From contig JAAZOM010000011.1 of the NCBI GenBank assembly GCA_012797775.1, positions 1-54,821 on the forward strand: 54,821 nucleotides of DNA, read 5' to 3'. Source of the DNA: Candidatus Kuenenbacteria bacterium. Lineage in GTDB: Bacteria; Patescibacteriota; Patescibacteriia; UBA2196; GWA2-42-15. Positions 5,429 through 54,821 of this stretch are shown here, piece by piece; positions within the stretch are counted from its first letter, which is position 1, and each line of letters opens with the position of its first letter. A program made the position numbers and the translations under genes. The notes under the pieces are model-generated. The model searched no databases. It saw only the letters and a program-made list of their open reading frames with translations, and was not told the origin of the DNA.

Positions 5429-5948
5429 TTTTTCAACATTTTTTAATGTTTTTACCCAACTTGTCCACATATTTGTAGACAAAGCCATATAATTATCTTG
5501 ACATTATCAGTATAATTACAATTTTCTTTTGTTTTTGTGGCGATTCTGCTTTAATATTTTTAATTTTTAAATTATTTTATTAAAATTACTCTTTTTCTTT
5601 GGTCTTGCCTGTTTTATTAGATCTCTGGTGCCCGATGCTCATTGTCTTTAATATTAATTAATATATATTCTGTCTCTCTTGCGATAAAGTGGATATTAAT
5701 TATTCTTTTTTATTGTTTTTTATTCTTTTTGATATTTTAGAAAAAATAATATATTTTAAAAAAATTACTATAATTTTAATTATTATTTAATTTTAGCAAA
5801 TATTATTCTTTTCTTGAAAATAAATTATTTTTTGTGAAATTTGTCTATTTTTTATTATTTTTTGCTAATATTAGTTAAATATTGCTTTTTTGATAAAAAA
5901 AATAATGTTGATAACCTGTGTATTGTTTAGCAAATCTGTTTAAAACTA
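5429..5948. other. Gene-free T-rich intergenic region
   Basis: No ORF, RNA gene or terminator was recognised. The plus strand is strongly T-rich, with long runs of TTTTTATT type. TTGTCCACA and TTGATAACC-like words occur, but no clear cluster of DnaA boxes. Around 5622-5640 there is an isolated TCTGGTGCCC that could be the 3' end of a decayed tRNA read on the minus strand. The whole region 5192-5980 is likely non-coding chromosomal space around parS. Confidence 0.5.
5449..5469 (+). repeat. Direct repeat unit 1 (TTTTTACCCAACTTGTCCAC)
   Basis: The 21-base block at 5449-5469 recurs identically at 7004-7024. Each copy is followed within about 10 bases by a TTG(T)AGACAAAG / TTGACAAAAAC segment, so similarity extends further. 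The two copies bracket the parS/tRNA region. Confidence 0.7.
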
Positions 5949-6151: not shown

Positions 6152-6227
6152 TGGTGGACCCTAGGGGGATCGAACCCCTCACCTCTTCCATGCCATGGAA
6201 GCGCTCTACCAGATGAGCTAAGGGCCC
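6152..6227 (-). tRNA. tRNA-Ala(GGC)
   Basis: 76-nt cloverleaf with encoded CCA: acceptor GGGCCCT/AGGGTCC, D stem GCTC/GAGC, anticodon stem CTTCC/GGAAG with loop ATGGCAT (anticodon GGC), and TTCGATC T-loop. The stop codon of the GIY-YIG gene at 6228 is immediately adjacent to the first tRNA base, so the tRNA is transcribed directly after, and probably processed out of, that message. Confidence 0.93.
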
Positions 6228-6494
6228 TTATCTTAAACTTATACACCCACTTTTTATAATTTTCTCAATAATTTTCCGACTTTTTAATCTTTTAATTCTA
6301 TACTCTAGTCTTCTTGCCTCTTTAATATCTAACAAGGGATAAAACATAATCAGTTGCCACGGTCTTAGGCCCTTGGTTGATTTTACTAATCCAGCATTGT
6401 GCTCAATGAGTCTATGGTCGACATTTTTTGAGCTACCAACATAATAACTACTATTTTTTAAACTTTTTAGAACATAAACACCAATTTTGTTCAT
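6228..6494 (-). CDS. GIY-YIG endonuclease-domain protein abutting tRNA-Ala
   Basis: 88-aa single-domain GIY-YIG protein of the YhbQ/UPF0213 size class. Motifs in order: GVYVLKS (GIY), YYVGSSKNVDHRLIEHN (YIG, with the catalytic-type Arg in DHRL), STKGLRPWQLIMFYPL, and the Glu-containing KEARRLEYRIKRLKSR helix. GIY-YIG modules cut DNA in UvrC, homing endonucleases and small stand-alone proteins. The ATG at 6494 is preferred over an in-frame TTG at 6500. It starts inside the T-arm position of a broken tRNA-Ala and ends exactly at an intact tRNA-Ala. A homing-like relationship with the tRNA gene is an inference. Confidence 0.85.
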   Translation of the reverse strand: MNKIGVYVLKSLKNSSYYVGSSKNVDHRLIEHNAGLVKSTKGLRPWQLIMFYPLLDIKEARRLEYRIKRLKSRKIIEKIIKSGCISLR

Positions 6495-6500
6495 AAGCAA

Positions 6501-6562
6501 GTCCTCACCTCCCCGACAGCACCAAGCTTGTCGGGACGCTCTACCAGATGAGCTAAGGGCCC
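6501..6562 (-). pseudogene. Broken tRNA-Ala copy: 5' half plus foreign palindrome
   Basis: The minus strand starts GGGCCCTTAGCTCATCTGG and runs through the D arm (6562-6537), identical to tRNA-Ala(GGC). The anticodon arm is then replaced by CCCGACA-loop-TGTCGGG (6512-6535), followed by AGGTGAGG of the variable/T region, after which the GIY-YIG gene begins. The anticodon stem-loop and acceptor 3' end are missing, so no function as tRNA is possible. Confidence 0.85.
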
Positions 6563-6634
6563 AAAATATAATTATTATTATAAAGTATAATTGATGTAAA
6601 AAATAAAATCAAATTGGCTAATATAAAATAAATT

Positions 6635-7307: not shown

Positions 7308-10300
7308 ATGATGTCCGAGATTTTTGGTGATAATCAAAAACAAACCCTAAAAAAAACTAACTTTGTTTTAAAGTCCGCTTTTTTTATAGCGGTTTTTATT
7401 TTATGTGGAAATATTATAGCCCTGAAAACCGGGCTAACAGAACAACTGTCAAAAATTTTTTACTACCCTATAGGAGGATCAGTGGCGGGGGAATATGCGG
7501 TGAGAATAGCGGCAGGAGATGAGCCCAACTGGAACCCCTCATACCCAAGGGTTACCTATGTTACCCCATCGGCAGACTCCTATTTCACTGGTTGCGCTGA
7601 GATCTCGGGAAACTTTGATGTGGTAGGCGTCTCTTATGGTAACTCTAGCTGTGCTCAAGCAATAAAAAATAAAAATAATCAGGTAATAATTTTTGGCCAA
7701 CTTAGAAGCGCGGTCTCTCTACTAGATGAGACACAAAAAGAGGATGATTTTGTCGATGTTTTGCCATATTTAGCCTTCAGAAGTGACGGCTACCAGCTAG
7801 CACAAGATGTGGCACCAAATACTACGGATGTTGATATAAAATTAAATAAAATTGACGGACTATCTACTGGCAATGGAAGATCTATTATTGTTGTTGGACC
7901 AAATAAGCTTAGTGATATTGACCAAATCGTAAACTACCCTGGGCTTGATCGTTTTTCTTATGCTTCAATAGATGCAGCTAATACGACGCTAAGGGGTGTT
8001 GGCGCTGGGCACGTAGATAAAAATTATAGTGCCGGTGATTATGTTATCCAGGTACCAAAAGTTGGGGGCTGGTTGGTAAATGTTTCCACAAGAAATCCAA
8101 CCTATAAAGACAATATAGCTTTTTATATTAATGATAAATACAAAAATGTTTCATCCTCTTATTTAAAATCTATAGATGCTATTTGGTATGATGCTTTCCG
8201 TTTTACCGGGGCCGAATCAGAGTTTGACAATGTGGATTTCAATCTTGATTTCGTGGCAGACACGCTGGCGGAAAAAACTAGCTCTTGGCAGGCTGGGCTG
8301 AAAGAAACATTTACCGCAGAAAAACAATATACTGGTAAAAAATATGTAATAACAAATGATGGTAATGGTGTGGTTCTCCCCAGCAGTGTAGCATCTTGGC
8401 ATGATGGTTTTATAGTTGAGTCTTGCATGTTCTATATAAATTCGTGGAATGACTATCTAAAAACACTCCAGGCGTGGAGCGATGCTGGGGATAGATTTAT
8501 CCTCTGCACTGATGAAAAATTTGATCCCTCTTATTGGACTGCTGAAAAAAAAGAGCGTTATAAAAATTATTTCAGCGACATGCGCTATGGCTTAACAACC
8601 AACACGATGGGAGATGCTTTCTATGGTCGTGAGGTTGGACAATACTACCAAATAAATCTTTGGTACGATGAGTACCAGACAGATTTGGGGTATCCGAAAA
8701 GTAAGGCACAAAAAATTAACAGCTTGTGCTTCAATGAAAAAATTGACTACACAACTTATGAACGTTGCCCATATGTCCGATTTTTTGACAATGGAGCGGC
8801 AATTGTTAACCCAACATTTAAAGATATAACAATAAAAGATAGTGATATAAAAGGTTTGGCTGGCTATGCCGGCCCATATTATAGATTTTATGGGGGGCAA
8901 TCTCCCACTGTTAATAATGGAAAGCAGTTGACGGATGGCGACCCCGTTGTTTTAACAGGACAGTATGCCGGCAATCCGGGCAAAGATGGAAAAAATAAGG
9001 GTGATGGAATTTTATTATTTAAAAAACCTGATTATTATGTAGTAGCCGATATTTTGGTCGGTAATTTTAATAATAATGATACATCTCCGGGGAGTAAGCC
9101 CGTCGAAACGACTGGCAGTTGGCCCAATGGCATAGATACTGGGGCGAAAACAAATCCTTATTTTTCACAATGGAACTGGGATGGTGATGAAGGTTGGGGA
9201 TATTTTTATACTACTGATCAAAGTGCTACGGCTACTTTCAGGCCAACCATTGGCATCGGTGGTGAGTATGAGGTTTTTGAGTGGCATGGCTGGGCCAACA
9301 ACGGTGGGGGTGGTGGGGAAGCTACAAATGTAAAAACAGAAATAAAACATGCCAACGGCACACAAAATACAACTATCAACCAGCGTGGCAACTATGGCAA
9401 GTGGAACAGTCTTGGAAAATTTATTTTTAATGCTGGTACTGATTGTTATGTAAAAATTTCAGCATCTGGGGCCGACGGAACCGTCTTGGCTGACGCGGTA
9501 AAATTTGTTTTTACCGGAAACTCCATACAACCACCACAACCACCGCCACCACCAGTTTGTAATAATAACGGTAACTGTGATGAACCTGGAGAAACAAATG
9601 CTAACTGCCCAAATGATTGCCCACCAGTCCCTAGCGGACAGTGCTATGCGGCGGATCATTTTTTAAACAGTACTTTAACTGATTTTAGTAAGTTTCATTT
9701 CAAGGGTGGCCCAGAAAAACAGGTTGATTTTCCAGATAATACTCATGCGCGCATACACCTAGAAGGAAGTATGAATAATCCAACTTCTGGAATCATTATG
9801 AAAAACGACATCCCTGCTGGCACGACTGACTTTGAAGTAAAAGTAGAGAGGTCTGGTCCGGAAGACGAAGTTGAAATTCTTTTCATGGAGGGCGATCCTG
9901 ATGCTTGTAAAAATTTTCTGATTGCCCTGCACCCGGTTTCCTTTGCCAATGCGGTCGGCAAAACAAGCCCAACTGGCTCAGCCGGACTAGGCTGCACCGA
10001 CAGCAACCAATGCAAGAGATTCTTAGAGATCCAATATTATGGTGATGGCACCAAGGGCACTAGCGCCGACAATTTGCCTGGCTATCCCAATTGTGATGAT
10101 GCAAACCCAAAAGAATTTGTCTTGGTCTCTGAACAAAGCAAGGTTGATAATTTGCTGGTATTAAAAGTGGTAAAACAAGGTTCGGTTTATGATATTTACA
10201 ATGATGACCAAAAAATCGGCACCTATACTGATTCAAAAAATCTTAATATTACCAAGGTGGCTGTGGTTAATCGCTCTAGTAACAGTCTAAAAAGTGACTA

Positions 10301-10580
10301 TGCAACAATTGGACCAATAGGCGTAGATTGCTTTACTAATAATACCAACTTAATGGCTGATCTAAACTGCGATGGCAGGGTGGACGTAATCGACCTTGGT
10401 GTTTTGCTTTCCTGTTGGCAGGATAATTTTAAAATAGGGTGTGTGAGCAGCTCGATAAGTTGTGACAAATCACCCGATATAAATATCGACGGTGCGGTCA
10501 ATATTGTTGATTTTGGGCTAATGCTTGGCTGCTGGGGCAATAATACTAGTGATAGTTGCAAGGCGCCCGTCTCGCCATAA
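7308..10580 (+). CDS. Giant secreted glycoside-hydrolase-like protein with golvesin, lectin-like and dockerin modules
   Basis: 1090 aa. An N-terminal hydrophobic segment (about residues 20-40) is followed by GGSVAGEYAVRIAAG, a motif shared with the next gene. Residues about 80-560 resemble a TIM-barrel hydrolase (AIWYDAFRF, FNLDFVADTL, WHDGFIVESCMF, RYGLTTNTMGDAFYG), closest in feel to GHL15-type putative hydrolases, but without a certain catalytic pair. Residues about 605-735 match the golvesin/xanthan-lyase C-terminal domain (GKWNSLGKFIFNAG, VLADAVKFVF). A CNNNGNCDEPGETNANCPND Cys motif, a LamG-like sandwich (780-1010) and a dockerin-like pair (DLNCDGRVDVIDLGVLLSCW, DINIDGAVNIVDFGLMLGCW; 1016-1085) follow. 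It is probably exported and attached to a partner via the dockerin. A TATAAT stands about 25 bases upstream. It is followed 27 bases later by a related gene. Confidence 0.75.
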   Translation: MMSEIFGDNQKQTLKKTNFVLKSAFFIAVFILCGNIIALKTGLTEQLSKIFYYPIGGSVAGEYAVRIAAGDEPNWNPSYPRVTYVTPSADSYFTGCAEISGNFDVVGVSYGNSSCAQAIKNKNNQVIIFGQLRSAVSLLDETQKEDDFVDVLPYLAFRSDGYQLAQDVAPNTTDVDIKLNKIDGLSTGNGRSIIVVGPNKLSDIDQIVNYPGLDRFSYASIDAANTTLRGVGAGHVDKNYSAGDYVIQVPKVGGWLVNVSTRNPTYKDNIAFYINDKYKNVSSSYLKSIDAIWYDAFRFTGAESEFDNVDFNLDFVADTLAEKTSSWQAGLKETFTAEKQYTGKKYVITNDGNGVVLPSSVASWHDGFIVESCMFYINSWNDYLKTLQAWSDAGDRFILCTDEKFDPSYWTAEKKERYKNYFSDMRYGLTTNTMGDAFYGREVGQYYQINLWYDEYQTDLGYPKSKAQKINSLCFNEKIDYTTYERCPYVRFFDNGAAIVNPTFKDITIKDSDIKGLAGYAGPYYRFYGGQSPTVNNGKQLTDGDPVVLTGQYAGNPGKDGKNKGDGILLFKKPDYYVVADILVGNFNNNDTSPGSKPVETTGSWPNGIDTGAKTNPYFSQWNWDGDEGWGYFYTTDQSATATFRPTIGIGGEYEVFEWHGWANNGGGGGEATNVKTEIKHANGTQNTTINQRGNYGKWNSLGKFIFNAGTDCYVKISASGADGTVLADAVKFVFTGNSIQPPQPPPPPVCNNNGNCDEPGETNANCPNDCPPVPSGQCYAADHFLNSTLTDFSKFHFKGGPEKQVDFPDNTHARIHLEGSMNNPTSGIIMKNDIPAGTTDFEVKVERSGPEDEVEILFMEGDPDACKNFLIALHPVSFANAVGKTSPTGSAGLGCTDSNQCKRFLEIQYYGDGTKGTSADNLPGYPNCDDANPKEFVLVSEQSKVDNLLVLKVVKQGSVYDIYNDDQKIGTYTDSKNLNITKVAVVNRSSNSLKSDYATIGPIGVDCFTNNTNLMADLNCDGRVDVIDLGVLLSCWQDNFKIGCVSSSISCDKSPDINIDGAVNIVDFGLMLGCWGNNTSDSCKAPVSP

Positions 10581-51083: not shown

Positions 51084-51659
51084 TTATTTACTTAGATATT
51101 TGAAAGCGTTTTTGAGCTTGTCTTCCATGCGGATAATGTCGGGGGGAATTTTTTTGAGGGCTTCACGAACATCACGCTCATTGTAGCCAAGAGAGATCAA
51201 CGCATCAAATGTTTCGGTGTCAGTATCAGAGAGATTGAGTTCTTTTTCGGTGGCAGGCAGAACATCCAGTTTATTTTTTAATTCTACCACGATACGCTCG
51301 GCAGTTTTTTTGCCAATGCCGGAAACTTTATAGAGAATAGCCGGGTCATCACGCAGGATAGCTTTTTTGATATCAGAAAGTTTGGCCACTTCGAGGACGC
51401 CCAGCGCGGTTTTGGGGCCGACACCGGAGATGGTGATGAGGATCTCAAAAAAACGCAATTCTTCCTGGGTCTCAAAACCAAAAAGACTCATGGCATCTTC
51501 AGAGTGCCGCAGGTGGGTGTAGAGCTCTAGTTCAGAATTAATTTGAGCTTTTTGGAGGAGAGTGGTAGGCGCAAAAATTTGGTAGCCGATATTGCCAACT
51601 AAAAGAACTAGAGACTTGGAGTTTTTTGAGAGGATAGAGCCCTTGAGATAAGAAATCAT
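51084..51659 (-). CDS. ruvA: Holliday junction DNA helicase subunit RuvA
   Basis: 191 aa. N-terminal OB fold MISYLKGSILSKNSKSLVLLVGNIGYQIF, HLRHSEDAMSLFGFETQEELRFFEILITISGVGPKTALGVLEVAKLSDIKKAI (helix-hairpin-helix), VSGIGKKTAERIVVELKNKL (second HhH), and a C-terminal domain ETFDALISLGYNERDVREALKKI for RuvB contact. A tetramer binds the four-way junction. Opposite in orientation to the 23S rRNA gene, with a shared intergenic region. Confidence 0.96.
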   Translation of the reverse strand: MISYLKGSILSKNSKSLVLLVGNIGYQIFAPTTLLQKAQINSELELYTHLRHSEDAMSLFGFETQEELRFFEILITISGVGPKTALGVLEVAKLSDIKKAILRDDPAILYKVSGIGKKTAERIVVELKNKLDVLPATEKELNLSDTDTETFDALISLGYNERDVREALKKIPPDIIRMEDKLKNAFKYLSK

Positions 51660-51770: not shown

Positions 51771-51798
51771 TTGACAGATTTGTCATTTTTGGTATAAT
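51771..51798 (+). promoter_or_regulatory. Consensus promoter upstream of the 23S leader
   Basis: TTGACA (51771-51776), 16 bases, TATAAT (51793-51798). Both hexamers are perfect. Predicted start about 51805. No 16S rRNA gene lies in front, so this promoter probably drives the leader and 23S rRNA. Confidence 0.8.
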
Positions 51799-51866
51799 AG
51801 TTAGTGAAAATAAATACTTAATATTTTGGCTTAATTTGGCTAAAATAACTTGGTAAGAATAATAAT

Positions 51867-51960
51867 ATGAAAAAAACAATATTATTAACAAAAAATCTAA
51901 GCGGTTAGGCTCTGGATTGTCTTGTTTTCGTACCAAGCCGCTTAGAACAAGCGGTTTTTT
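51867..51960 (+). promoter_or_regulatory. Leader peptide ORF plus attenuator-like hairpins before 23S rRNA
   Basis: A 13-codon ORF (51867-51908; MKKTILLTKNLSG, stop TAG) overlaps segment 1, TCTAAGCGG (51896-51904). Segment 2, CCGCTTAGA (51938-51946), pairs with 1 perfectly over 9 bp. Segment 2 can also pair with segment 3 (AAGCGG, 51949-51954), forming a terminator followed by TTTTTT. The two pairings exclude each other, as in translational attenuation. No good Shine-Dalgarno sequence precedes the ATG, so translation of the peptide is unproven. Confidence 0.5.
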
Positions 51961-52124
51961 GTTACTTTAAAAAATAGTAAAGAATAAAATCAGTTCAGTT
52001 TTGAGGGTAGACCCTGAAAAGTGGATTGATTAGGATAGAATTTTAAAAACATTTATAAGGGAGGGTTGAGGAAAAAATTGCAATTTTATATTGTAAGGAG
52101 ATTTCTAAAATATAAGCTTTTAGG

Positions 52125-54821
<2,697 letters not shown>

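Follow-up and report, generated by a model that had tools for sequence, protein, structure and literature searches.

A short leader precedes an unlinked 23S rRNA gene

The window, the whole 54,821-nucleotide stretch analysed here, is contig 11 of a draft genome of Candidatus Kuenenbacteria, Patescibacteria/CPR (930 kb in 31 contigs). It ends in a 23S rRNA gene on the forward strand (52125–54821; RF02541, 2096 bits), the 3′ part of which is cut by the contig end; in relatives (L005 and L010), 5S lies downstream of 23S. An earlier note on this DNA had reported no 16S gene or spacer tRNA before the 23S gene, and Rfam searches agree, with no 16S in the window and tRNAs only at 6–7 kb. Because no 16S was found anywhere in this draft assembly, the description of the 23S gene as stand-alone is based on relatives, in which, across the set examined for both genes, 16S is either on another contig than 23S or separated from it by over 15 kb (for example, in the single-contig genome G346). 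Wherever both genes were located in that set, 16S was elsewhere in the genome, and linkage showed no contrast with leader presence, the two genes being unlinked both with and without a recognised leader. According to the sections of PMC8172020 consulted, such unlinked and distant 16S and 23S genes were already known in CPR bacteria (Brewer et al. 2020, cited there); those sections describe no regulatory leader on them.

Upstream, ruvA (51084–51659; Pfam) lies on the opposite strand. It is followed by a sigma-70-type promoter, TTGACA-16-TATAAT (51771–51798, forward strand), which matches the consensus at 12 of 12 positions, is the best of the region and bears out the earlier description of a perfect promoter before 23S. 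Next comes a 13-codon leader open reading frame (ORF) encoding MKKTILLTKNLSG (51867–51908, forward strand), which runs from an ATG at 51867 to a TAG at 51906–51908 (ATG AAA AAA ACA ATA TTA TTA ACA AAA AAT CTA AGC GGT TAG) and has no Shine–Dalgarno sequence. Its last codons and the first base of the stop codon make up segment 1, UCUAAGCGGUU (51896–51906, forward strand), which pairs with segment 2, AGCCGCUUAGA (51936–51946, forward strand). The first base of the stop is the last base of segment 1 (51906), in keeping with the earlier claim that the ORF ends within that segment. Segment 2 is common to the antiterminator and to an intrinsic terminator (51935–51960, forward strand) with a stem of 51935–51943 and 51949–51957, the latter arm being segment 3, and a T run to 51960. 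A terminator scan found this single intrinsic terminator, compared with 0.2 expected in shuffles. At the 5′ end of 23S, a conserved element (52109–52133, forward strand) is complementary to the 23S 3′ flank in relatives; it matches L005 and L010 just past 23S on the other strand and is probably a pre-23S processing stem.

The leader forms mutually exclusive helices

Folding of 51893–51962 yielded the 1–2 hairpin (−20.1 kcal/mol), and removing segment 1, which mimics a ribosome on the stop codon, yielded the terminator (−10.8 kcal/mol); the entire leader folds 4.8 standard deviations better than its shuffles. The folds with and without segment 1 thus uphold the earlier proposal that 1–2 and 2–3 pairing exclude each other and that 2–3 is an intrinsic terminator, the two structures sharing one segment. 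Among 75 relatives, masking segment 1 produced the terminator in 73, and unmasked leaders showed 1–2 pairing in 45, compared with 15 when segment 1 was shuffled. The terminator hairpin was present in 33 of 75 minimum-energy folds of complete leaders, and antitermination would therefore depend on co-transcriptional folding.

Covariation followed the same pairing. In an alignment of 70 leaders that was fitted by covariance model and is hence biased towards helix 1–2, this helix was paired in 91% of cells, as against 22–50% when slid, and had 34 double-change cells compared with 11 in shuffles, none of 500 shuffles reaching 34. Alignments fitted in this way were used because plain MAFFT placed segment 2 wrongly in distant relatives. 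A 6-nt word that segments 1 and 3 have in common, and to which segment 2 is complementary, occurred in 49 of 78 leaders, a set enriched for AAGCGG through a pattern scan, compared with 0.2 with shuffled segment 1.

The leader is conserved before 23S across the phylum

Searching the family with the leader DNA gave matches before 23S. Five relatives carry the leader peptides MKKVTLFTNSLSG, MQRIMLLTKYLSG, MQIQVLLTNKLSG, MQIQILLTNKLSG and MRDNNLLLDTLSG, and in every case the same pair of alternative helices comes after the ORF. In a second family, the outer pairs of helix 1–2 co-vary (UUCAAGCGG/CCGCUUGAA and UUACAAGCGG/CCGCUUGUAA against CUAAGCGG/CCGCUUAG). A covariance model placed the leader before 23S in 9 of 9 genomes of the order. 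Under strict filters, a nine-sequence model matched 74 of 380 genomes of the class, with the 23S 5′ motif downstream at 69 of 70 inspected loci and 23S confirmed by Rfam at all 20 loci checked. The figure of 74 is probably a lower bound, because several model-negative genomes (G014, G022, G025, G032, G012 and G019) have, on visual inspection, a terminator and an ORF resembling the leader; no recognisable leader was seen in class members G009, G021 and G034. A 70-sequence model found matches in 36 of 379 genomes from the other classes of the phylum, and 23S was present at 16 of 20 scanned loci of this phylum-wide search. In G391, the leader lies between a 16S–tRNA–tRNA cluster and 23S and has its own promoter-like sequence. 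Matches at E above 0.06 in search R1 (L022–L025) look unrelated to the leader, and those at E near 0.009 in search R3 (L317 and L321) had no 23S.

We also scanned 84,980 species genomes with a DNA pattern blind to the ORF, its start being left unspecified. This gave 52 matches, 45 of them in CPR genomes (counting as CPR-like one filed as Omnitrophica and one filed as Elulimicrobium, both before 23S) and 7 elsewhere. The CPR matches had 23S within 600 nt in 44 of 45 cases, and none of the seven others (Pseudoalteromonas, Paraburkholderia and Morganella) did; the latter look like background. None of 28 16S genes had a comparable leader. Loss of the exclusive stems in relatives had been named beforehand as an outcome that would speak against the proposal; instead, stems and ORF were kept across order, class and phylum.

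Two loci stood apart. One assembly (G303) holds two differing 23S leaders, MRQQKQLFKYPSG and MSKIIIINKFISG (L107 and L089), which represent either two 23S copies or contamination. At L020 (G008:C18:25463–28117), the Rfam match covers the full 23S model in 1.1 kb of L020; this 23S seems to be without part of its first half, or misassembled.

Related leaders precede tRNA-Asn genes and suggest the polarity

One match of search R1 (L021) led to leaders of the same architecture before tRNA-Asn genes. Scanned for this architecture, 1.05 Mb of sequence containing 145 tRNA genes yielded nine distinct ORF matches, four of which, at three loci, precede tRNA-Asn, with leaders such as MKKLASNDNNNNNNQLTAG. 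With a strict pattern search, the tRNA-Asn-type leader pattern was found in 28 of 380 class genomes, compared with one match for a reversed-pattern control, and in 25 of these 28 loci at least five Asn codons of an ORF lie upstream of segment 1 and a tRNA-Asn gene follows. The genome studied here carries such a leader, MFYMKRLTNNLNNNNNRLRVG, before tRNA-Asn (G000:C28; L036:7252–7489), and others were seen at L040, L066, L075 and L288–L315. Each such unit combines a sequence resembling a promoter with a short ORF containing consecutive Asn codons and with antiterminator and terminator stems that exclude one another; second tRNA-Asn genes, where observed, lacked a leader. Cognate regulatory codons are thus present in the tRNA-Asn leaders and absent from the 23S leader.

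From this arrangement, ribosome-mediated attenuation apparently makes the tRNA-Asn gene responsive to its own amino acid. When Asn-tRNA is scarce, expression of the gene should rise, as a ribosome halted early, on the Asn codons, would leave segment 1 free and permit readthrough; a ribosome at the stop codon would cover segment 1 and cause termination. Because the tRNA-Asn leaders of the same genomes share the architecture of the 23S leader, this polarity can be transferred by analogy, which suggests that a translated 23S leader leads to termination and an untranslated one to readthrough.

The opposite polarity, in which a ribosome paused on the leader aids 23S transcription in the manner of trp or erm leaders and an untranslated leader terminates, appears unlikely to us. 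Some leader codons favour Leu, Ile and Lys, which could mean pausing, and trp-type attenuation does terminate when its leader is untranslated. However, the 23S leader has only three segments, so that a free segment 1 would pair with segment 2 and bar the terminator; its peptide sequence is unconserved; and the Asn codons of the tRNA-Asn leaders lie upstream of segment 1, where stalling would free that segment and give readthrough to the needed tRNA.

Several tRNA-Asn loci have further features. The gene is flanked by a long stem at L036:7370–7570, L075:8840–9010, L066:12262–12390 and L040 (minus strand, about 5781–5853), and in some genomes the sequence outside it looks like another tRNA-Asn gene that the inner one interrupts, so that this tRNA-Asn appears nested. 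Separately, a GIY-YIG endonuclease ORF (Pfam PF01541), on the minus strand both in the window (6152–6566) and in L033 (about 10066–10420), has an incomplete copy of the 5′ part of a tRNA gene on one side and the complete gene, for tRNA-Ala in the window and tRNA-Asn in L033, on the other; this unit is a probable mobile element inserting at tRNA genes.

The promoter upstream of the leader is the only one detected for 23S

The promoter upstream of the leader matches the consensus at 12 of 12 positions in 41 of 67 relatives, and across these 67 loci the upstream promoters average 11.3 of 12, compared with 8.2 in shuffles. The stretch between terminator and 23S gave no promoter signal at the same 67 loci, its mean of 8.5 being that of its own shuffles (8.5). 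We accordingly rejected a second promoter for 23S, and the separate promoter after 51,960 that the earlier note had considered damaging to its proposal did not appear. The same stretch contains the boxA-like motif CTTTRACAATT in 42 of 69 loci, compared with 0.6 expected; the window itself has no boxA match at up to one mismatch.

These results bear on whether promoter, leader and terminator might instead constitute a small RNA or micropeptide gene of their own, with 23S transcribed from a separate promoter. The intrinsic terminator does separate the promoter from 23S, as such a gene would require, but the lack of promoter signal beyond it, boxA-like sites placed as expected for an rRNA transcript begun farther upstream, and an unconserved peptide make this reading very improbable.

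Start, length and stop of the leader ORF are conserved, its peptide hardly

The distance from the ATG to the stop codon is exactly 39 nt in 31 of 45 independent loci, compared with a mean of 0.2 per out-of-frame position, and in 51 of 78 leaders of the pooled non-redundant set. For the ORF, only the pattern scan counts as independent, as the covariance models were built with the ORF region. Stops within the leader frame numbered 7 in 858 in the pooled set, compared with 105 and 65 in the other two frames, and the identity of the stop codon varies at one fixed place (25 TAA, 15 TGA and 11 TAG). Codons 2–9, by contrast, drift, with a synonymous fraction of 0.236 versus 0.219 expected and thus no synonymous excess, and the only fixed residues of the peptide are Ser–Gly, coded inside segment 1. 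A Shine–Dalgarno sequence precedes the leader in 6 of 51 cases, compared with 3.1 expected, and so lends no clear support to translation of the ORF.

Because the ATG at −39 is kept, frame stops are suppressed and three stop codons alternate while codons 2–9 drift, the comparison indicates that start, length and stop are under selection and the peptide hardly so. It likewise points to a probably translated ORF, with start, frame, stop and length kept across the phylum. The earlier suggestion to look for conserved leader codons in relatives thus held for start, stop and length and failed for the peptide codons. We rejected amino-acid sensing by the 23S leader (no cognate codon bias, drifting codons 2–9) and an arrest peptide of the erm, tna or secM type (unconserved peptide, no synonymous excess), and found no codon bias in the leader that would fit 23S. 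An incidental ORF, with pre-23S controlled or processed solely by the RNA structure (intrinsic or protein-bound), would fit base-level conservation being that of the 1–2 and 2–3 helices, but is scarcely plausible given the fixed ATG, the suppressed frame-0 stops, three different stop codons at one position and the Asn-coding leaders before tRNA-Asn.

Model for control of 23S synthesis by leader translation

We consider it probable that the leader attenuates transcription of the unlinked 23S(–5S) unit through the ribosome, with translation leading to termination. RNA polymerase would start at the 51771–51798 promoter and make the 13-codon ORF. A ribosome translating to the stop codon would cover segment 1, leaving segment 2 to pair with segment 3, and RNA polymerase would stop near 51960 without reaching 23S. 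With an untranslated ORF, or with a ribosome still short of the stop at the time segment 2 appears, the 1–2 helix would form in place of the terminator and 23S would be made. With start, stop and length held but codons 2–9 drifting, the leader would act as a translation reporter and timer rather than an amino-acid sensor or arrest peptide, the timer asking whether ribosomes can translate 13 codons before RNA polymerase reaches the terminator. The earlier conjecture that 23S transcription might be controlled by ribosome movement on a small peptide gains support from the conserved stems and ORF and from the lack of a later promoter; we infer termination and readthrough in the cell, the control of both by translation, the polarity and the sensed signal.

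Ample working ribosomes would thereby lower 23S synthesis and shortage would raise it, giving negative feedback on 50S supply, and a leader on 23S and not 16S could balance 50S against 30S where their promoters are separate. Candidate signals include 50S supply, initiation, general translation speed and antibiotic stress. Ribosome feedback, the matching of rRNA synthesis to ribosome demand, is a classic problem; the answer for E. coli lies mainly in the action of ppGpp and initiating NTPs on promoters. A compact cis-acting device would let ribosomes shut off their own 23S RNA via 13 codons in one of the largest bacterial radiations, could explain subunit balance in cells with unlinked 16S and 23S genes, and would add to the few regulatory circuits predicted for the CPR, whose members are mostly uncultured. 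In its broadest form, the model is of phylum-wide cis feedback, with a codon-neutral 13-codon timer that sets 23S (50S) independently of 16S and so solves subunit balance, alongside an Asn-codon attenuator of a tRNA-Asn gene in the same bacteria, stable-RNA genes being governed by translation itself and not by promoter control; for this version we judge the case evenly balanced.

Comparison with known systems

In the window, only tRNA and 23S reached the Rfam 15 cut-offs; all matches in the leader were weak and chance-like, and known cis-regulatory RNAs such as the T-box were rejected, the leader matching no Rfam 15 family. No prior description of such a 23S leader was found in the literature searched, which covered few subscription journals.

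With attenuation of amino-acid operons (trp, his, phe and ilv) the 23S leader shares a short ORF, exclusive helices, an intrinsic terminator and, as proposed here, a decision made by ribosome position. Unlike those leaders, it has 23S rRNA as its target, no cognate codons, a length held at 13 codons and only three segments, so that an untranslated leader would mean readthrough. In erm-type and other antibiotic- or stress-sensing leaders, such as the E. coli topAI upstream ORF (PMC12121999), an upstream ORF senses the state of translation, as proposed here; however, those ORFs respond to stalling and regulate genes for resistance or stress, whereas the 23S leader has a drifting peptide and rRNA itself as its target. 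Antitermination by boxA and Nus factors acts on elongation of the rRNA transcript, as the 23S leader would, but is not coupled to translation and has no leader ORF, and the attenuator described here lies upstream of the boxA-like sites. With a target that lacks precedent in the literature searched, the 23S leader is, in our rating, a variant of ribosome-mediated attenuation.
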